Below the pieces are notes generated by a model that saw only the letters and a program-made list of their open reading frames with translations, had not been told where the DNA came from and searched no databases. From contig JASLXG010000184.1 of NCBI GenBank assembly GCA_030740435.1, forward strand, positions 1 through 37,100: DNA of 37,100 bases, read 5' to 3'. A program made the position numbers and the translations under genes. This stretch comes from Alphaproteobacteria bacterium (GTDB taxonomy: Bacteria; Pseudomonadota; Alphaproteobacteria; UBA2966). Shown here piece by piece: positions 14,305 through 24,013 of this stretch (within the stretch, counting starts at the first letter, position 1; each line of letters starts with the position of its first letter).

Positions 14305-15231
14305 ATGTCCGAAAAAAAATACCGCCTCGTCACCCGGGCCGATTTCGACGGTGCCGTTTCGGGCTGCCTGTTGATGGAATTGGGCATGATCGGCGAGGTG
14401 GCGTTTGCCGAGCCCAAGCAGGTGCAGGATGGCGAGGTTGAAATCGACGGCAACGATATTCTCACCAACCTGCCCTATACCGAAGCCGCCCACCTCTGCA
14501 TCGACCACCATTTCAGCGAGGTCGAACGCGTGGGGGCCCACGACAACCTGGTGATCGATTCCGAGGCGCCCTCGGCGGCCCGGGTGGTCTACGAGCATTT
14601 CGGCGGCCACGACGCCTTTCCCGAGATCTCCGAGGAAATGTTGGCGGCCGTCGACCAGGCCGATGCGGCGCAATATGATGAAGCCGACATCCTGGCGCCC
14701 GAGCCCTGGACCATGCTCAATTTCATGCTCGATCCGCGCACCGGCCTCGACCGCTTCGGCCCCTACCAGGTCTCGACGCCGCAGTTCATGAAGGAAATGA
14801 TGACCTATCTTCGCCACACCCCGGTGGCGGAGATCATGGCGCTGCCCGACGTCGAGGAGCGCCTGCACCTCTTCATGACCCATGCCGAGCTCTTCGAGAT
14901 GCAGATCAAGGATTGCGCCAAGCTGCACGGCAACCTAGTGGTGGTCGATTTCCGCGGCCAGGATTCGATCTACTGCGGCAACCGCTTTACCGTCTACGCC
15001 CTCTACCCCGAGTGCAACATATCGATCCAAGCGCTGCCCTTCGGCTCGGACCACACCGTTTTCGCCGTCGGCAAGTCGATCCTCGACCGCAGCTCGCGCA
15101 CCAACGTCGGCGAGCTGATGCTGAAGTACGGCGGCGGCGGCCACCGCGCCGTCGGCACCTGTCGCGCGGCCAACGCGGACGCCGAGCGGGTGCTGGGCGA
15201 ACTGGTGGCCCGGATCACCGCCGACGGTTAG
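14305..15231 (+). CDS. DHH family phosphoesterase
   Basis: A 308-residue member of the DHH/DHHA1 phosphoesterase superfamily, which includes exopolyphosphatases and nano-RNases. The N-terminal motif RADFDGAVSGCLL supplies the first Asp pair, CIDHHFSE is the DHH motif (about residues 71-73), and D-A near DQADAAQYDEAD supplies another metal ligand. The C-terminal DHHA1 domain has LKYGGGGHRAVGTC. Two Mn2+ ions are expected. The substrate (oligonucleotide, polyphosphate or other) cannot be told. ACAGGTACC precedes the ATG. Its stop overlaps the stop of the convergent selenoprotein gene by 4 nt. Confidence 0.82.
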   Translation: MSEKKYRLVTRADFDGAVSGCLLMELGMIGEVAFAEPKQVQDGEVEIDGNDILTNLPYTEAAHLCIDHHFSEVERVGAHDNLVIDSEAPSAARVVYEHFGGHDAFPEISEEMLAAVDQADAAQYDEADILAPEPWTMLNFMLDPRTGLDRFGPYQVSTPQFMKEMMTYLRHTPVAEIMALPDVEERLHLFMTHAELFEMQIKDCAKLHGNLVVVDFRGQDSIYCGNRFTVYALYPECNISIQALPFGSDHTVFAVGKSILDRSSRTNVGELMLKYGGGGHRAVGTCRAANADAERVLGELVARITADG

Positions 15232-16322
15232 CCCGCGTAAACGAACATTTCCAGGTCGAGCTCAGCGCGCATGTCCGCCGTCATCTCCTCCTTGACCGCC
15301 TCGAGCGGAATGCCGGTGGCATCGGCGGCCCGGGGATAGGCGTTGAAGGCGGCGATCACCGCCGCGGCGTCGAGCATGGCGGCCTCGCCGAGACGCTCGG
15401 TGATGGCGGCCCGCGCCATCGCCGTCCGGGCCGCGTCGCGGCGGCAAACGCCGGCCGCGAAGGCGCTCAAAAGCGCCCCCTGGGGCACGCCGCCATCGCC
15501 CGCCGCGTCGCTCATGACGGCTGCGAGCTGGTATTCGTCGCCGCTGCTTTGGCCGCTCACCCGGAGCCGCGCTGCATGGCTGGTGGTTCAGTAGAAGCAC
15601 TCAAGGAGGGCCGAACAGCGGGCCGCCAGGAACTCGATCTGGGCCCGCGAGATGGCCCTGTCCAGGCCCTCGAGCTCGTCGATACGGGGGTCGGGCAGGT
15701 AAAGCGGGTTCATGAGGTCCCAAAAACGCCGCACCTCGTCGGGCACCAGGGTCAGCGAGCGGCGAATGTAGAAGTGCGAGTCGTTGGCGTAGAAATCGGC
15801 GAAGTCGGGCGGCGCATCTTCGGGCGCGATGGTCGAGAGCCAGCCTGGGCCAAGCGTCGCCTCGGGCGGGCGCCGCCGCGCCGGCTGGCCAGCGCTACGC
15901 TTGGGAAATTCCGGCAAGGCGAGGCCGGCGCCGAAGGCGAAGGAATCGACGGTTTGGCTGATGATGGCGACGCTGACGATCTCGATAAATTCGTCTTCTT
16001 CGATCCCTGAATCGCGGGCCTGGCGGTACCATCTTTCGCTCAGACGGCCGGAATCGGTAATCAGCGGATGGATGACTTCGATCCAGGAATCGGCAAGCCC
16101 GCCGGCATAGTCGTGGCTGCCCGCCTCGGCGTGGGGCGAAAGCGCCTCTTTGCGGCGCCGGCAAAAGCCGCAGTTCCAGGCCTCGCGCGCCGCCGCCGCA
16201 ATGGCCAGGCGTTGGGCACCGTCGAGCCAGGCGCCGCACTCGCCGAGGCGCCGCCAGGCCTCGTTCAGCGCTGAGCGCAGGTCCTCGCGCAGGTTCAGCG
16301 GCGCGGCGTCGAAGGGGTTCAT
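15228..16322 (-). CDS. AhpD-related selenoprotein (in-frame TGA read as Sec)
   Basis: Two frames, MNPFDAAPLN...LLECFY (244 aa) and TTSHAARLRV...FVYAG (119 aa), are in the same phase and separated only by one TGA at 15588-15590. Read through, they give 364 residues with U at 245. The junction becomes E-C-F-Y-U-T-T-S-H, exactly the AhpD/carboxymuconolactone-decarboxylase active-site pattern C-x2-C-x3-H with the second Cys as selenocysteine. The N-terminal half has its own CGFC pair (REAWNCGFC). A SECIS-like hairpin follows the TGA. A peroxidase or thiol-redox role is expected from the family. It starts 78 nt after the NapF-like gene on the same strand, with AAAGGAAA as ribosome-binding site. 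The alternative is a nonsense-mutated pseudogene or a separately started second half. Confidence 0.8.
15552..15570 (-). promoter_or_regulatory. Candidate bacterial SECIS hairpin
   Basis: In the mRNA, GCGGCUC-CGGGU-GAGCGGC starts 17 nt after the UGA. It forms a 4-bp apical stem (GCUC/GAGC), a G-G mismatch and 2 more pairs, with a 5-nt loop CGGGU. A G is at loop position 2 and the loop begins 24 nt after the UGA. This fits the loose bacterial SECIS rules (a short stem-loop in the coding region just after UGA, with G among the first two loop bases). No folding program was run. Confidence 0.55.
15588..15590 (-). other. TGA codon predicted to encode selenocysteine
   Basis: The minus-strand TGA between TTC-TAC and ACC-ACC-AGC-CAT lies at the position of the second Cys of the AhpD CxxC-x3-H motif. 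The frame stays open for 119 further codons and keeps the high GC third positions of a coding sequence. Confidence 0.75.
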
Positions 16323-16400
16323 CGAGGTTTCCTTTCAATCATCCGCCCCGGACCGCAAGCTTGGGCGACAATTCCGGAGCGGATTTTGCTGCCTTCGCCA

Positions 16401-17000
16401 TCACGCCTCCCCGCTCTCCCCGGCCGCGATGAAGACCGCGATGCCGACCGCCTTGGGATCGACGATACAGGCTTCGCGGCAAAGCGCACAGCCGGCGCAG
16501 AGATCCTGGTCAATCACCGGTTTGCGCCCGTCCGGCCATTGCAGCGCGCCGGCGACCGGGCAACTGTCGGCACAGGCGCCGCACTCGGGGCCCAGATAGG
16601 GCAGGCACGACCGTTCGTCGATGCTGGCCACGGCCAACTTCGGCGGCACCACGGGTGCATTTTCTTTGGCGCCCGCCGGCAGCGCCAATGCGGCCGGTTC
16701 GCAGGCGCTGACGCAGGGCCAGTCCGGGCACAGACGGCAACCGCGATGGAGCAGATTCATGGCCGGTGTCCCGGCCGCCGTCAGGCCATGGCCGGACCTG
16801 AGTTTGAAGAGAACGTCATAGCCGCAGGCCTCGAGGCATTTGTCGCAGCGTGTGCAGCGGGCCAGGAACAGCGGCTCGTCGACGGCGAAGGGCGGCCTGA
16901 TCCAACCGTCGGCGCGCAGGGTTGCCGCCTGGCCGGCCACCTCCAGGGCCACCTCGGCAGCCTTTTGCGCACCCAGTTTCAAGAGATCGCGGCGTTTCAT
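16401..17000 (-). CDS. NapF-like ferredoxin-type protein, four [4Fe-4S] motifs
   Basis: A 199-residue iron-sulfur protein. Four Cys clusters are visible: CTRCDKCLEACGYD (about 50-60), CRLCPDWPCVSACEP, CLPYLGPECGACADSCP and CAGCALCREACIVDP, suggesting four [4Fe-4S] centres. It starts MKRRDLLKLGAQKAAEVA, which contains a twin-arginine-like RRDLLK, but the following region is only weakly hydrophobic, so export is uncertain (classical NapF is cytoplasmic). The frame is open further upstream over the neighbouring gene; the ATG at 17000 was chosen because it overlaps that gene's stop (ATGA). It is the last ferredoxin-type gene of the nap-like run and probably handles electrons or maturation of the NapA-like enzyme. 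Confidence 0.78.
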   Translation of the reverse strand: MKRRDLLKLGAQKAAEVALEVAGQAATLRADGWIRPPFAVDEPLFLARCTRCDKCLEACGYDVLFKLRSGHGLTAAGTPAMNLLHRGCRLCPDWPCVSACEPAALALPAGAKENAPVVPPKLAVASIDERSCLPYLGPECGACADSCPVAGALQWPDGRKPVIDQDLCAGCALCREACIVDPKAVGIAVFIAAGESGEA

Positions 17001-17602
17001 TTCGGCCGCTTCTCGTTGTGGGCGCCGCGGATCTTGCCGGTCAGGGCGCGCCGGCGCTGGACGATGGTGAAGCCCACCAGCATGATCGCCAGGACCGCGA
17101 GCGCGATGCTGGTGGGTCCAAAGCGTGATGGCTCGCCGACCCGCAGGGGGAAATCGATGGCATAGGGCACACCAGCGGCCTCGAACTCGGCGCTGACGAT
17201 GTATTCGCCGGCAGCTTCGAAGTGGACACCTTGGCGAAAGACCGCGTCGTCCGGTGATTGCAGGCCGAGAACCGAGCTGTGCGGACGATACCCCAACCAG
17301 GAAAACCACGAACCGTTGCGCACCTTGAAGGTAACCTTGCCGGTGAACGGCGGGCCGCCGTCGGTTCGCGGGAGATAGAGATTGATGCGCCCCGGACGCC
17401 CCGGACGCGGCTGGTCGGGAAAGACCATGTAGGTGGCGGTAAAGTCGCCGACCTGTATCTCCACCTGGATTGCCGGCGGTGTGTTGGAATCGCCGCTCAG
17501 GTCGTAACTGGGCCGGCCCAGCACGTGGTGCGCGAGCGCCAACTCCAGGGCCGCCGAACAAGCGACCACGACCATCAGGGCAAGGAACGAAAACCTCGCC
17601 AT
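16997..17602 (-). CDS. Membrane-anchored YtkA/FixH-like periplasmic protein
   Basis: A 201-residue protein with an N-terminal signal or anchor helix (FSFLALMVVVACSAALELALA), a beta-rich periplasmic domain of about 130 residues (QVEIQVGDFTATYMVFPDQPRPGRPGRINLYL...FTGKVTFKVRNGS...FEAAGEYIVSAEFEAAGVPYAIDFPLRVGE) and a C-terminal membrane helix (TSIALAVLAIMLVGFTIV) with a basic tail. The layout resembles YtkA/FixH-type proteins, which have Ig-like domains linked to copper or membrane-complex assembly; the assignment is weak. No clear metal motif is visible. It is tightly coupled to both neighbours: 3 nt after the NapG-like gene and ATGA overlap with the NapF-like gene. It is not a standard nap gene. 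Confidence 0.6.
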   Translation of the reverse strand: MARFSFLALMVVVACSAALELALAHHVLGRPSYDLSGDSNTPPAIQVEIQVGDFTATYMVFPDQPRPGRPGRINLYLPRTDGGPPFTGKVTFKVRNGSWFSWLGYRPHSSVLGLQSPDDAVFRQGVHFEAAGEYIVSAEFEAAGVPYAIDFPLRVGEPSRFGPTSIALAVLAIMLVGFTIVQRRRALTGKIRGAHNEKRPK

Positions 17603-17605
17603 CGC

Positions 17606-18214
17606 TCAGCCCCGGCTCGGCGCGGTCCGATCGGCGCCGCCTTTGACGACCCAGATCGGTTTGCTGGGATGGGGACAGATCTCGACGCAAAGCCCGCAAC
17701 CGACACAACCCTCTTTGATGACCGGCCGGTACTGGTTCCACATCTTGTGGCTAATGGCCTGCTTGCCCAAGGGGCAGATACTGACGCAGGCGCCGCAGAC
17801 GCCACGGTCGACCCAGGGATAACAGGCGTCGCGGTCGATTTGGGCCAATCCCATGGCAACCCGTTCCCGAGGCACCACGCTGAGCGCCTCGGTGGGGCAG
17901 ACCTCCATGCATTTGCCGCACAAGATGCAGCCCTTTTCCGCCGCATCGAGGAAAGGTGTATTGACCTTGGCGCCGCCGCCGCGGCTGTGAAAAAACAGGC
18001 AGCGCGGCGGGCAGACCTCGCCGCAAAGGCCGCAACCGATACAGGCGGCAACGAAGGCGGCGTCATCCGCCAGCGCCCCCGGCGGGCGCAGATAATTGCG
18101 GTTTTTTGCTGTCTGCCCGGGCGCCAGCAGCGGTGACGCGGCGTAAGGCGCGGCGCTGGCGGCCACCAGCGCGGCACCGGCGACGATCTTCTTGAGCAGC
18201 CGGCGGCGCTTCAT
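17606..18214 (-). CDS. Second NapG/MauM-like ferredoxin-type protein
   Basis: A 202-residue iron-sulfur protein with a twin-arginine-like leader (KRRRLLKKIVAGAALVAASAAPYA), so probably exported folded to the periplasmic face. Cys motifs are CIGCGLCGEVCPPRC (about 58-72), CILCGKCMEVCP, CYPWVDRGVCGACVSICP and CVGCGLCVEICPHP, predicting four [4Fe-4S] centres. The NYLRPPGAL segment before the first cluster is shared with the other NapG-like protein (YLRPPGGL at 19199-19771), so the two are paralogues. It starts within the NapH stop (ATGA). A quinol-to-periplasm electron relay with NapH is the expected role. Confidence 0.8.
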   Translation of the reverse strand: MKRRRLLKKIVAGAALVAASAAPYAASPLLAPGQTAKNRNYLRPPGALADDAAFVAACIGCGLCGEVCPPRCLFFHSRGGGAKVNTPFLDAAEKGCILCGKCMEVCPTEALSVVPRERVAMGLAQIDRDACYPWVDRGVCGACVSICPLGKQAISHKMWNQYRPVIKEGCVGCGLCVEICPHPSKPIWVVKGGADRTAPSRG

Positions 18215-19206
18215 GGCCCCGCCACCTCCGGCGGGCGGCGATGTTCACGGCCCAGGTGGCCCGGCCCCTGGGCGGCCACGTCGCTGGGCCTGATGGTGAA
18301 CGTCAAGGCAGCCGTCGGGCAGATGGCGATGCAGGCGGTACAGTTGTTGCACTCCTGGCCGAAACCATCGGCCATGGGATCGAGGCCGAACTCGCAAATG
18401 ACGTTGCACTTGGCGCAATCGTTGCAATTCTCGACCAGGCGGCGGATGCGCACCAGGCGGAAGCGCCCAAGCAGGGAATAGAGCGCCCCCCCGGGGCAGA
18501 GATAGCGGCAGAAACCTCGCCGCGCCACCAGCAAATCGAACAGCAGCGTGACCAGGAAAAACACCGTGCCGGCGCCAAATCCGCCCAGCGCGATGACATA
18601 GTAAAGCTCGCGGCCGATGATGGCCGGCGGATAGATGGTGGCGACCAGGACGACGCCGCTGGCCGCCGAGAGCACCAATCCCAAGACCAGCACGGCATAT
18701 TTCAGCCGCAAGTCGAAGCGCCGGTTGCCCAGATCGAGGCCGGCCCAGCGCAGCCAGGAGGCAAAATTGCTGTTGAGTTCATAGATCAGCGTGGCCGGGC
18801 AGATCCAGCCGCAGAAAATGCGGCCGAAGACGGCGGTCACGGCCAGGGGGATCAGCGCCGTCAGCAGAAAGGGCCAATGAAAGCCCAGGCCGGCGGCGAT
18901 CTGTCCCAGGGCGGCCAAGGGATCGGTGAGTCTGAGCGACCAGAACGTCCCCGACCAGGTGGTGCCCTTGATGGCATCCAGGTCCTCGGCCGGATCGTCG
19001 ACCAAGGGCGCGGTCAGCATCTCCATGACGTCGTAGAGGCGCTTTTCCTCTGGCGCCAGCAAGTCGTAGGCGTGGGCTGCCACGTAGGTCTGGTAAAGGT
19101 GCACCAGCGGCAAGAGGACGAGCGTGGCCAGGACCAGGCACAGCACCAGCCAGCGCAGTTTGTTGAGGTGGCGCCAGAGCACGAAAGGCTGGCGGCCCTC
19201 AGCCAT
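18211..19206 (-). CDS. napH: NapH-like quinol dehydrogenase membrane subunit
   Basis: A 331-residue inner-membrane protein with about four main membrane helices and the NapH/NosR hallmarks: FCGWICP (about 124-130) and FCRYLCPGGALY (about 223-234) CP motifs at helix ends, followed by two [4Fe-4S] motifs, CNDCAKCNVICEFGLDP and CNNCTACIAICPT. NapH with NapG moves electrons from quinol to periplasmic acceptors. It has an extended periplasmic loop after helix 1 (LLAPEEKRLYDVMEML...) longer than in enteric NapH. I chose ATG 19206, which overlaps the NapG stop by 8 nt; an upstream extension is unlikely. The C-terminal tail (GHLGREHRRPPEVAGP) is non-conserved. Confidence 0.82.
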   Translation of the reverse strand: MAEGRQPFVLWRHLNKLRWLVLCLVLATLVLLPLVHLYQTYVAAHAYDLLAPEEKRLYDVMEMLTAPLVDDPAEDLDAIKGTTWSGTFWSLRLTDPLAALGQIAAGLGFHWPFLLTALIPLAVTAVFGRIFCGWICPATLIYELNSNFASWLRWAGLDLGNRRFDLRLKYAVLVLGLVLSAASGVVLVATIYPPAIIGRELYYVIALGGFGAGTVFFLVTLLFDLLVARRGFCRYLCPGGALYSLLGRFRLVRIRRLVENCNDCAKCNVICEFGLDPMADGFGQECNNCTACIAICPTAALTFTIRPSDVAAQGPGHLGREHRRPPEVAGP

Positions 19207-19771
19207 GGTCCGGAATGATGCGGATGGCCTGCGGCAATTGAATGCAGGAGCGTTCGCAAAGGCCACAGCCGACGCATTTGTCGGTGACGTGGGGCTGCTC
19301 GAGGCGGCCCACGGTGATGGCCACGTCGGGCAGCGGACAGGCCCGGTAGCAGACGCCGCAGGTCTTGCCCTGGAACGACAGGCACAGGCTTTCGTCGACC
19401 CGGGCCCGGCCCATCCTGACCTCGGCCAGGATGGCCCCCAATTCGCGCGCGATGGGTTTGAGGGCGCCGGTGGGGCAGGCGTCGCCGCATTTCATGCAAA
19501 GGATGCAGGCTTTTTGGCGCGGGATGAGGTGTGGCGTCTCGGCCGAAGCCCAGCCGTTCTCAAAGCCGAAAAACTTGATGGAACGGTTGGGACAGTTTTC
19601 GCCGCATTGGCCGCAACGGATGCAACGCGCCAGAAATTCCTTCTCGGCCAGCCCCCCGGGGGGCCGCAGGTACCTGAGCGAAGGCCGCCCCGGCGCTGCC
19701 GCGGCCGGGCTCGGCAGTGCCGCCGCCGCGGCCGCGGCACCCACCACCCTCATGAAAGTTCTGCGACGCAT
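19199..19771 (-). CDS. napG: NapG-like ferredoxin-type protein
   Basis: A 190-residue protein with a twin-arginine-like leader (RRRTFMRVVGAAAAAAALPSPAAAA) followed by four [4Fe-4S] motifs: CIRCGQCGENCPN (50-60), CILCMKCGDACP, CLSFQGKTCGVCYRACP and CVGCGLCERSCIQLP. The arrangement matches NapG/MauM proteins, which work with NapH in electron transfer from quinol to the periplasm. GAGGG lies directly against the ATG, closer than usual, so a slightly different start is possible. It lies 73 nt after the NapA-like gene and overlaps napH by 8 nt. Confidence 0.82.
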   Translation of the reverse strand: MRRRTFMRVVGAAAAAAALPSPAAAAPGRPSLRYLRPPGGLAEKEFLARCIRCGQCGENCPNRSIKFFGFENGWASAETPHLIPRQKACILCMKCGDACPTGALKPIARELGAILAEVRMGRARVDESLCLSFQGKTCGVCYRACPLPDVAITVGRLEQPHVTDKCVGCGLCERSCIQLPQAIRIIPDHG

Positions 19772-19844
19772 CCCTCGATGGCCAATAAATTAACCCGGTC
19801 AACCGTAGCCGTTCGTGCGGTCAGTCGTTCCCGCTTCGCAGCCC

Positions 19845-22556
19845 TCAGATCTTCTCAATTCGGGCGGCGCACTTCTTGAAGTCCACCTGCCCCGACACGG
19901 GATCCCAAACCCGGCTGGTAATGCCGTTGGCCAGCCATTTGTTCTTCTTGGGATCGGCGCTGTCCGCCACCGAGAGGTTCCAGGGCCCGAACATGTAGCC
20001 CCGGGGTACGCTGTTGCGGGCCGGCTTGACCAGGCTGTTGGTACCGACCTGGGCCCGGGCTTCGAGCGATCCCCGGCGCGTCACCACGCGCACCTTGTCG
20101 CCATCCTTGATGCCCAGATCCTTGGCGTCGTCGTCGTGCATCTCGACGTACATTTCCGGCACCAGGCGGCGGGTGGTGGGGCTGCGGTTGGACTTGGCCG
20201 TATGGAAGTGCTCGTAGACCACGCCCAGCCCCATCCAGTAGGGATATTTGTCCTTGGGCACCTTGTCCCAGCGCGTGCCGCGGAAATCCTCGTCCGGCAT
20301 ATCCGGCGTCAGCCCCTTGTCACGAGCCTCGACCATCAGATCGATGTGGTCGATGGTGTAAAGTTCCTCCTCGACACCGAACTGCATCAATTTCTCAGTC
20401 GCCGCCGCACGGTCGGAATAGTCCTGGCGGCAGAGTTTCATGTGCACCTTGCCGTCTTTGGTGCGGAAGTAGCCGTAGGGCCGGTTCTCCCAGCTTCCTT
20501 CCTGCATCATGAAGCGGCGCTTGGTGCCGCCGTTTTGAGCGGTCTCGTAGCTCGGCGCCGGCCATTGGATGCCGCGCAGCTCCTTGAGCTGCTCGTAGGG
20601 CGATATCTTGTCCAGTTTCTCGACGTCCAGAATGCCGGTGAGATCGGTGTCCGTGCCGGCCGAGGCGCGGATCACGTCGCGGAAAATCTCTTCGGGGTCG
20701 TAGAAGCCGTCGTCGCCCCGCTTGTAGGGCAGGACCTTTTCCATATCCAGCCCCAGCAGCGTGCCGATCTCCTTAGCCTTGTCGATGACCATGTCCAGGT
20801 CGGGCAGGCATCCCTTGGGCGGCTCGGCGGCCTTTTCACAAAGATTGATACGCCGTTCCGAGGAGATGTAGACGCCCGCCACCTCGCCCCAGGTGGCGGC
20901 TGGAAAGATCACGTCGGCATAAAGATTGTTGGGCGCGTGGCGATAGATTTCCTGCACCACGTTGAAGGTCTTGGCCAGCGCCGGGCGCACCAGATTGTAC
21001 TGGTCGGGCAGATCGATGTGCGTGGCGTAGACCAGGAACATGGCCTTGACCTCGTCCTTCAGCGCCCGCTCCATCATGCCCACGGCATAGCCCGGGTTCT
21101 TGGAGTTCATGGCGTTGACCAGATTGGCCTCGGGCACGCGCCAGCTTTTGGCCATGTGCTTGCGATGGGTAGCGTCCGAGAGCGGTTTGTTGAAGGGCAG
21201 CCGCCCCGTCAAGCCACCGGTGAAACGCTCGCCCATGGCGTTGGGCTGTCCGGTCATGGAAAAGGGGCCGCAGCCGGGCTTGGCCAGATTGCCGGTCAGC
21301 GTCAGCAGGTTGATGATCGAGATGACGTTGTGCTGGCCGTGGACGTGCTGGTTGTAGCCGATACCCCACATGATGATGACGCCGCCATAGCCGCCTTTCT
21401 GCTTGCCCCGGGCCCTGGCCAAACGCTTGCGCGTGGCATCGGCGAACATGCCGGCGACGCGGCGGATGAGGGCCGGCGAGACGTCGTGATTGGGCCCGCC
21501 CATGCGATCCTGCACCTGTTCGGGGCTGTAATCCTCGCGGCACGCTTTGACGTATTCCTGCCAGCCGGTGGCATGCTCCTTGACGAAATCCCAATCGATG
21601 ACGTCATCGTGGTCCTTCAGCAAAACGTGGGCCATAGCGTTGAGAAAACTGATGTCGCCGTTCAGGATCGGCACGTGCACGGTGTTGTCGGGATTGACGT
21701 CCTCGTAGCCGGTCAGAGTGCCGGTGCGGCGCGGGTCGACGACCACGGAGGGAATGTTCTTCTTGCGTTTGTAATCGGCGGCGCGCCAGAAAATGATGGG
21801 GTGCGATTCGCGGGCGTTGTGCCCGAAATGCATGATCATGTCGCACATTTCGATGTCTTCATAAGCCAGCGGCGGCGTATCCGAGCCCAGCGTCGCGAAA
21901 TAGCCGGTCACAGCCGAGGTCATGCACATGCGGGCATTGGCCTCGATGGTGTTCGAGCCCAATACGCCCTTGAGGAACAGGTTCTCGAGATACTGCCCCT
22001 CCATGGTCAACTGGCCCGAGCCATAGAGCGCCACCGAGTTGCCGCCATATTTCTTGGCGAAGTGGGCGATCTTGTGCGCCACCATCTCGGAGGCGTCGTG
22101 GTAGGGCACGCGTTGGAAGTGCTCCTCGTCGAACGAGTCCTTGGTTTGGGAGACGAAATCGAGATCGCCGTGGCCGCTTTTTTTCCATTCCTTCCAGACG
22201 TCCTTGCGCACGTAAGGATCGCCTTCCATGCGATCGACGTACATGGGCTCGGCCGCCGTCAGGCCCTTGATGCACTGCAGGCCGAAATTCGTCGGATGGT
22301 CCTTGTCGGGCCGCATCGAGACGATCTTGCCTTTTTCGACTTGGATGATGGTGCCGCAGCCGACGCCGCAGTAGGGGCACTGGGCGATCGCCGTGGTGCG
22401 CTCGTCCTCGGTTTCGGCCGCCTCGGCGGAAGCGATCTCGAGTTCCGGATTGGCGCCCACCAGCAGGCCGGCGCCGGCCGCCGAGGCGGAGGCCGAAACG
22501 AAGGCTCCGGTTTTGAGCAAATCCCGGCGCGACAGAGTTCTTTTGCTGCGTTTCAT
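19845..22556 (-). CDS. napA: NapA-like periplasmic molybdopterin oxidoreductase
   Basis: A 903-residue bis-MGD molybdoenzyme, longer than typical NapA (about 830). It has a Tat leader (SRRDLLKTG at 9-17 plus a hydrophobic Ala/Gly stretch), an N-terminal [4Fe-4S] site with Cys 60, 63, 67 and 95, and a molybdenum-ligand Cys211 in NARMCMTSAV, as in NapA (NARHCMASAV). PGCGPFSMTGQPNAMGER and the end VDFKKCAARIEKI are also NapA-like. However, the NapA motif NQHTRG reads NQHVHGQHN here, so the active-site Arg is absent, and there are insertions after residue 100 and near 590. Nitrate is the default substrate by homology, but the change makes this uncertain. AAGGAGG precedes the ATG. No NapD chaperone is nearby. 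Confidence 0.82.
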   Translation of the reverse strand: MKRSKRTLSRRDLLKTGAFVSASASAAGAGLLVGANPELEIASAEAAETEDERTTAIAQCPYCGVGCGTIIQVEKGKIVSMRPDKDHPTNFGLQCIKGLTAAEPMYVDRMEGDPYVRKDVWKEWKKSGHGDLDFVSQTKDSFDEEHFQRVPYHDASEMVAHKIAHFAKKYGGNSVALYGSGQLTMEGQYLENLFLKGVLGSNTIEANARMCMTSAVTGYFATLGSDTPPLAYEDIEMCDMIMHFGHNARESHPIIFWRAADYKRKKNIPSVVVDPRRTGTLTGYEDVNPDNTVHVPILNGDISFLNAMAHVLLKDHDDVIDWDFVKEHATGWQEYVKACREDYSPEQVQDRMGGPNHDVSPALIRRVAGMFADATRKRLARARGKQKGGYGGVIIMWGIGYNQHVHGQHNVISIINLLTLTGNLAKPGCGPFSMTGQPNAMGERFTGGLTGRLPFNKPLSDATHRKHMAKSWRVPEANLVNAMNSKNPGYAVGMMERALKDEVKAMFLVYATHIDLPDQYNLVRPALAKTFNVVQEIYRHAPNNLYADVIFPAATWGEVAGVYISSERRINLCEKAAEPPKGCLPDLDMVIDKAKEIGTLLGLDMEKVLPYKRGDDGFYDPEEIFRDVIRASAGTDTDLTGILDVEKLDKISPYEQLKELRGIQWPAPSYETAQNGGTKRRFMMQEGSWENRPYGYFRTKDGKVHMKLCRQDYSDRAAATEKLMQFGVEEELYTIDHIDLMVEARDKGLTPDMPDEDFRGTRWDKVPKDKYPYWMGLGVVYEHFHTAKSNRSPTTRRLVPEMYVEMHDDDAKDLGIKDGDKVRVVTRRGSLEARAQVGTNSLVKPARNSVPRGYMFGPWNLSVADSADPKKNKWLANGITSRVWDPVSGQVDFKKCAARIEKI

Positions 22557-22569
22557 TTTCTACGCCTCC

Positions 22570-23226
22570 TTATTTCTTACCAAGACTGCGCAGATAGACG
22601 ATGATGTCGTCGATCTCCTGATTGGTCAGATCGGCCAACCCAGCCGGCCCCTGAAAGGCCAACATGCGGGTATTGGAGCGGCCCTTTTTGATGGTTTCCC
22701 GGATGAAGCCGTCGGTGACCTTGTTCAAAAAACCGGCCGATCCTATGGCCGTACCGGTGCCGCCGGCCTCGTAACCGTCGCCGCTGACGCCATGACAGGT
22801 GGAGCAGATGTTGTTGTACCAGGTTTGTCCCAGGCGGGGATCACCGCGGGCGTCGGGCTGGCCGTCCACTTCCTTGGCCCGGTTCGGCTTTTGCTCGTGG
22901 AAGCGCAGAAAGGCCACGATGGCACGGACTTTCTTGCGCCCCAAATGGGCAAACGGCGGCATCCCCGTATCCTCCCGGCCATCACGGATTGTGGCCTCGA
23001 AAAACTTGTCCGTCGAGATGCTCAGAAGTTCCTGATTGGTCAACGACGGCGCCACACCAGGCGAGCCGATGGCGTCGGCCTGATGACAGACCTCGCAATT
23101 CTCGACGAACAGTACCTTGCCCAGTTTCAGCGTCGATGGAGACGCCGTGGCGGCCTGGCTGGCGGTGCTGAAGGTGGCCCAGGCCAGGCCGGCCAGGCCG
23201 GCGAACATCACTTTGAATGCGAACAT
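22570..23226 (-). CDS. Dihaem class I cytochrome c (takes the NapB position)
   Basis: A 218-residue periplasmic protein with a Sec signal peptide (FKVMFAGLAGLAWATFSTASQA, cleaved near 25) and two cytochrome c domains. Haem motifs are CEVCH at 44-48 and CSTCH at 141-145. Candidate axial Met ligands are in DTGMPPFAH and NTRMLAFQG. It is a tandem class I dihaem cytochrome, not NapB, whose two haems are bis-His and embedded in a shorter protein. Its location between napC and napA argues that it is the electron donor to the NapA-like enzyme, or the link from NapC. GGGAGAG precedes the ATG and the stop is 13 nt before the napA start. Confidence 0.85.
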   Translation of the reverse strand: MFAFKVMFAGLAGLAWATFSTASQAATASPSTLKLGKVLFVENCEVCHQADAIGSPGVAPSLTNQELLSISTDKFFEATIRDGREDTGMPPFAHLGRKKVRAIVAFLRFHEQKPNRAKEVDGQPDARGDPRLGQTWYNNICSTCHGVSGDGYEAGGTGTAIGSAGFLNKVTDGFIRETIKKGRSNTRMLAFQGPAGLADLTNQEIDDIIVYLRSLGKK

Positions 23227-23281
23227 GTTCTCTCCCTACCCTCTGCGATCTCGAGCGCCCCACGTTGGGCCGTCAATCCGA

Positions 23282-24013
23282 CTAGTCGTCCTTGCCCCAT
23301 CCATCGTCCTTGGAAGGAGCCGCCATGTCCAGGTGGCAGGAACGGCAATCCACCTTTTCCTCTTCCATCCTGTCATGCAGCGCATCCATCACCGCCTCCT
23401 CGTCGAAGCCCTCGGGTAGCGTATGGACGATTCCCTGATGGCATTCGATGCAGGTGGTGCCCCACTTTTCGGCCAACCCGTGCATGGTGCGGGCCTGGAT
23501 ATCCTGCACCTGGCGGTTCATGTATTCGATGCCGTGGCAGTTCCGGCACTCCCGCGAATCAGTACCTACCATATCGTTCCAGACGTATCCCGCCAACTGC
23601 AACCGCTTGGCGTTGAACTCGCCCGGGGTGCTGATCGATCCCATCAGCCAGTGAAACAATTCGTTGGTCGCGCCGATCTTGCGGACGACCTTGTGAATCC
23701 ATTCCTTGGGCACGTGGCAGTCGGGGCACGAGGCCCGCACACCGGTGCGATTGGTGAAGTGCGCCGATTTACGGTATTCCCGGTAAACGTTCTCCTCCAT
23801 GACATGGCAGGATATGCAAAAGGTCTCGGTGCTGGTGGCCTCCAAACTCCAATTGAAGGCGCCCCAAAAGAGTATGCCGGCCACGAACGCGGCTAGGATC
23901 GCAGATAGCGGACGGCTGCTGACGGTGGTTTGCAAGAACCGCAATAGCACGACCAGCCATTCCGGTCGCGCCCACGACCGGCGCAATATCTGGCTCTCTT
24001 CGCGTCCCGCCAT
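23282..24013 (-). CDS. napC: NapC/NirT-type cytochrome c with five haem sites
   Basis: A 243-residue membrane-anchored multihaem cytochrome. One N-terminal membrane helix (about 36-56) is followed by CxxCH motifs at 66-70, 96-100, 156-160, 188-192 and 223-227. The first four and the spacing match tetrahaem NapC/NirT quinol dehydrogenases (FCISCH-ME, SCPDCHVPK, CRNCH, CIECHQGI-H-LP). The fifth, DCRSCH, lies in a short acidic tail beyond the normal end, giving a pentahaem form that differs from TorC because no large extra domain is present. It should take electrons from quinol and pass them to the dihaem cytochrome encoded 55 nt downstream. It is the first gene of the run, divergent from maeB. 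Confidence 0.85.
   Translation of the reverse strand: MAGREESQILRRSWARPEWLVVLLRFLQTTVSSRPLSAILAAFVAGILFWGAFNWSLEATSTETFCISCHVMEENVYREYRKSAHFTNRTGVRASCPDCHVPKEWIHKVVRKIGATNELFHWLMGSISTPGEFNAKRLQLAGYVWNDMVGTDSRECRNCHGIEYMNRQVQDIQARTMHGLAEKWGTTCIECHQGIVHTLPEGFDEEAVMDALHDRMEEEKVDCRSCHLDMAAPSKDDGWGKDD

Follow-up and report, generated by a model that had tools for sequence, protein, structure and literature searches.

A candidate selenoprotein gene of the NF041238 AhpD-related family behind an in-frame TGA in an alphaproteobacterial genome

Does a TGA within an alphaproteobacterial open frame mark a broken gene, or does it encode selenocysteine (Sec) in an intact one, and what would the resulting protein then do? 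The question is raised by a locus in the window, the whole 37,100-nucleotide stretch of DNA that was analysed. On the minus strand, positions 16322..15228 read as an ATG, 244 codons, a TGA (15588..15590), 119 codons in the same phase and a TAA; translation of the TGA as one residue yields a 364-aa protein containing LLECFYUTTSHAAR, with CFYUTTSH at residues 242-249. A GAAAGGA ribosome-binding-site-like sequence lies upstream of the start codon (16323..16347, minus strand; GGCGGATGATTGAAAGGAAACCTCG before the ATG). An earlier note on this DNA had reported frames of 244 and 119 codons in one phase with a single TGA between them, and these coordinates proved exact; its placement of the feature at 15228-16322 likewise holds, although it made no mention of the strand, which is the minus one. 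The plus-strand reading of 15228..16322 was rejected, as it contains two TGAs and makes no family sense. GC3 is alike on the two sides of the TGA (0.83 and 0.87). A simple count over this GC-rich window gave 18 cases in which open stretches of >200 and >100 codons in one phase are joined at a TGA. An open frame on either side of a TGA is therefore unremarkable here, and homology was needed to give the observation meaning.

Family membership and the conserved UGA

When read through the TGA, the protein matches NF041238 (AhpD_rel_CFYUT, "alkylhydroperoxidase-related (seleno)protein") with 425.4 bits over residues 12-360, the curated cut-off being 175 bits, and the match spans the TGA and covers model positions 2-355 of 357. 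The CxxU-T motif of this model is present as CFYUT at residues 242-246, and the Pfam CMD domain PF02627 is weakly matched around the CxxU (19.1 bits, under the cut-off of 23). The family has thus already been described, in 2005 as "hypothetical protein 1" of the Sargasso Sea (PMC1088965) and under the name NF041238 in PMC13188914, and the window copy is a further member of it: they are alike in the 349-residue match, the CxxU, the in-frame UGA and the SECIS-like hairpin, and nothing essential in the window copy differs from NF041238. The expectation that gene callers would split such a gene and lose its active site is accordingly only partly true, since an NCBI model for the family, carrying "(seleno)protein" in its name, exists.

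A profile search of 385 genomes of the class returned 50 listed matches above the cut-off, distributed over 27 genomes, and every one of the 50 contains exactly one TGA. As matches over threshold in a further 398 genomes of the phylum were confined to the organism's own genome, Cys forms were sought in two orders richer in the family, where again all listed matches (22/22 and 30/30) have exactly one TGA. No Cys form of the family was found above the cut-off in the class search or in these two orders, whereas the authors of 2005 did count homologues with Cys for their family (PMC1088965). A plasmid search with the protein gave no match. In an alignment of 49 members, with identity down to about 31%, the U occupies a single column in all 49, and C242, U245, T246 and H249 are invariant. 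The nearest Cys-containing relatives, which score below the family cut-off, have Cys at the Sec column (CFYC in L049 and L051), as does the solved structure 6k40 (CVYC). This bears out the proposal that the locus encodes the AhpD redox motif with its second Cys replaced, and it answers, in the same sense, the suggested check of residue 245 in homologues. Conservation downstream of the TGA, a further suggested check, is as high as upstream of it: identity to the four nearest relatives before and after the TGA is 63/61, 61/61, 60/60 and 59/62%.

These comparisons bear on whether the gene could be a pseudogene, in which a nonsense mutation or an assembly error has split a former Cys-type AhpD gene. 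Under the standard code the TGA does end the frame, and the 18 chance pairs in the window show how readily such a picture arises. Nevertheless, each of 63 distinct full members extracted from many genomes keeps the same UGA as its one U and has an otherwise open frame with no other stop, the divergence among them is old (about 31% identity at the lowest), and conservation is equal on both sides of the UGA, which makes a pseudogene highly improbable. The claim of the earlier note that the gene is a functional selenoprotein gene and not a pseudogene is supported by these 63 members, as far as comparison of sequences can support it.

Selenium machinery and the hairpin after the UGA

All four genes whose presence had been suggested as a check, selA, selB, selC and selD, were found in the same genome. 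The tRNA-Sec (selC; 73.5 bits, anticodon TCA) shares a contig with selD (419 bits), and selA and selB are adjacent on another contig (561 and 412 bits). The machinery genes are on contigs other than that of the window, in a draft assembly with 3.1% contamination. Among the sampled genomes, selA is present in all 27 that bear the family as compared with 56 of the 385 overall (hypergeometric p = 3e-26, a figure that is too favourable, since it treats related genomes as independent and is not corrected for shared descent). A change of the genetic code, with UGA read as Trp or another standard amino acid, is the least probable account of all: nothing was found in its favour, TGA serves as the stop codon, where one is expected, in several of the neighbouring genes, tRNA-Sec is the only UGA-reading tRNA-like match above cut-off, and relatives have Cys rather than Trp at the aligned position.

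Directly after the UGA, the sequence can form a SECIS-like hairpin (15552..15570, minus strand) in which GCUC (columns 24-27, counted from the U of UGA) pairs with GAGC (columns 33-36). The apical loop, starting at the 28th base, is of 5 nt (CGGGU) in the window copy, and one loop G is invariant across the family. Below the apical stem of the window copy come a 1x1 G.G mismatch, which is a feature of its clade, and two further pairs; across members the lower-stem pairs differ in kind (C-G, U-G, A-U, G-C). The isolated 41-nt stretch that follows the UGA in the window copy was no more stable than shuffles (z = +1.26). Since folding energy thus gave no proof of the SECIS in the window copy by itself, comparative evidence was used. 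At Leu253, 48 of 49 members use the codon CTC, as against 22% CTC among the Leu codons elsewhere in the same genes, and the codon that completes the stem at its 3' end has G as its third base in 49/49, while its residue varies between Ala, Glu, Gly, Val, Met and Leu. Such constraint at silent positions would be expected of an RNA element, and together with the invariant loop G it points to a hairpin directly downstream of the UGA with a G in its apical loop, as a SECIS should have. Covariation of the stem is only suggestive, being reached in 44 of 2000 permutations, and RNAalifold retains only 3 pairs.

It is well supported by these comparisons that SelB and the Sec-charged tRNA would read UGA 245 as selenocysteine, guided by the hairpin directly downstream. 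On the evidence of family, machinery and hairpin, the identity of the locus as a selenoprotein gene appears close to certain, and the best explanation of the locus, to which we would give a probability of about 0.9, is a functional selenoprotein gene belonging to NF041238.

Two predicted AhpD-like domains and the resemblance to Sestrin

AlphaFold2, run on the 49-row alignment, returned a model with a pLDDT of 91.1 and a pTM of 0.92. The prediction is of a single chain that joins two AhpD-like helical domains as a fused dimer, the N-terminal one being divergent. The predicted C-terminal catalytic domain (residues 159-361; 15240..15848, minus strand) resembles AhpD-type proteins, matching 6k40 with a Z of 13.1 over 179 residues. 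As helical folds give high Z scores easily, the N-terminal domain (residues 1-158; 15849..16322, minus strand), modelled with a pLDDT of 93, was compared separately: the first 17 PDB rows are without exception AhpD-type (Z 6.7-8.8), and the next rows lie at about 3.7-3.8.

The C-terminal half has the helix-turn-helix CxxC-x3-H arrangement of AhpD-like proteins (CMD superfamily), with U245 as Sec in the place of Cys. All five residues of the relay, E230, C242, Y244, U245 and H249, are kept, the Glu standing 12 residues before the first Cys, and their spacing is identical to that of the proton relay in PA0269 (E36/C48/Y50/C51/H55; PMC3141380) and of the relay in YP_296737.1 (E74/C86/Y88/C89/H93; PMC4674687). 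This half is thus alike in fold, relay and spacing to the TIGR01926 peroxidase-related enzymes and single-domain AhpD proteins (6k40, 3c1l, 2prr, PA0269), but these have one domain and Cys where the window protein has two domains and Sec, and its TIGR01926 score is 41.7 bits against a cut-off of 81.8.

The best full-length PDB match of the model is human Sestrin2 (SESN2), one of the Sestrin stress proteins of animals, with a Z of 18.4 and an rmsd of 2.9 over 238 residues, at 11% identity and spanning model residues 1-339. Two AhpD-like domains per chain, predicted here, are shared with Sestrin and with the Sestrin-like bacterial fused AhpD dimers, carrying Cys, that were noted earlier (PMC11429811). 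Sestrins are defined by a single catalytic Cys in the N-domain, a cysteine-free C-domain and an acidic hinge (PMC4674687, PMC11429811). In contrast to Sestrin, whose active site is in the N-domain (Sesn-A, Cys125) and consists of a single Cys, the window protein has its active site in the C-domain, with Sec. For the 49 members, the matches with E values of up to 10 included neither the Sestrin profile (PF04636) nor a Sestrin chain. Membership in the Sestrins was rejected on sequence, there being no profile match, and on the placement of the active site, the full CxxU relay being in the C-domain; the likeness is one of architecture. Our literature search found no paper linking the NF041238 selenoprotein family to the Sestrin arrangement.

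The N-terminal domain is without the relay and carries instead C51-x2-C54, H70 and H85, each present in 42 of the 49 members. Of the remaining seven, one (L009) is a truncated sequence, and six have a deletion of the CxxC together with substitutions at both His positions. Kept and lost in this way, the four residues would seem to behave as one site. The six members without the N-terminal CxxC form one clade in the tree, so that their loss counts as a single event, which weakens, without removing it, the case that these four residues act together. The site might, at a guess, hold a bound metal ion, or its thiols might form a second pair by which the Sec site is reduced.

The own genome holds three paralogues of the family, each with one UGA: the one in the window and a further two on contig C96. 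The latter, both Sec-containing, are at L052:7685-8749 and L052:15296-16366 on the minus strand, about 7.6 kb apart. The window copy falls, with full support, in a clade of nine that includes sequences from gammaproteobacterial MAGs (L008, L009). Tandem Sec-containing copies, both of the clade without the N-terminal CxxC, occur at L046:267-1316 and L046:1507-2556 (minus strand). A shorter AhpD-like match at L050:202-594, with the motif CFYUTQSH and a score below the family cut-off, comes from a genome that has selA; it is a separate Sec-containing AhpD type.

Probable chemistry, partners and meaning

The genes around the locus give little guidance to its substrate. A nap-like redox cluster ends 78 bp upstream of the gene and was not found near its relatives within the flanks read; with no conservation of the genes next to it, the locus offers no context from which to name a substrate, and the neighbourhood was left unused as functional evidence. 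The cluster is an operon-like run on the minus strand (16401-24013) with a NapC/NirT cytochrome, a c-type cytochrome, NapH, three NapG-type ferredoxins, a Tat-type molybdopterin oxidoreductase (329 bits, against a NapA cut-off of 904) and an orphan 201-aa protein that has no Pfam or NCBIfam match. The run is a putative periplasmic Mo/W enzyme system.

From the relay, an AhpD-type selenol/thiol oxidoreductase is the likely nature of the protein, and we infer that it is most likely a selenol/thiol oxidoreductase or peroxidase. AhpD chemistry, with C242 and Sec245 cycling and with hydroperoxides being reduced or electrons being passed to a partner, is a probable reading. The C242/Sec245 pair would alternate between the selenol-thiol and the selenenylsulfide form, E230, Y244 and H249 would move protons, and the Sec site would either reduce organic hydroperoxides directly or hand electrons to a peroxiredoxin-type partner. 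The N-terminal C51/C54/H70/H85 site would be metal-bound, or would act as a thiol pair that reduces the Sec site. More tentatively, the protein may represent an always-Sec bacterial enzyme built like Sestrin, with cooperation between a metal or dithiol site in its N-terminal domain and the CxxU in its C-terminal one.

Within this chemistry, the protein could work with a peroxiredoxin as its reductase or adaptor, in the way that AhpD of M. tuberculosis works with AhpC, rather than being a peroxidase itself. Relatives in L042, L069 and L070 argue for this, their AhpD-type selenoprotein gene adjoining a gene for a Prx-like UPYC selenoprotein; selA is nearby on the same contigs, and a comparable pairing of Prx-like and AhpD-like genes is on record in ocean data (PMC2398784). 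At the window locus and in the closest relatives, however, no Prx-like neighbour was seen within the flanks read, and we regard the adaptor role as possible but as falling short of even odds. It is unlikely that Sec is inserted into a protein whose main role is binding or sensing, which is part of what Sestrin does, with the redox site serving as a switch and not for turnover. The Sestrin2 match (Z 18.4) is the best full-length one, and the existence of several Sec-containing paralogues within one genome hints at specialised partners; on the other hand, similarity of fold at 11% identity, without a match to the Sestrin profile, shows no function, and the retention of all five relay residues fits catalysis.

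The analysis thus shows a gene that looks disrupted to be intact, and assigns it to a selenoprotein family on record since 2005. It also brings out features of this family that can be tested, namely Sec without a Cys substitute in the members read, a predicted Sestrin-like fused AhpD dimer, and a four-residue N-terminal site that is kept or lost as a unit. If the tentative reading of two cooperating sites were true, the family would give a bacterial model for the division of labour between the two diverged domains of a fused AhpD dimer.
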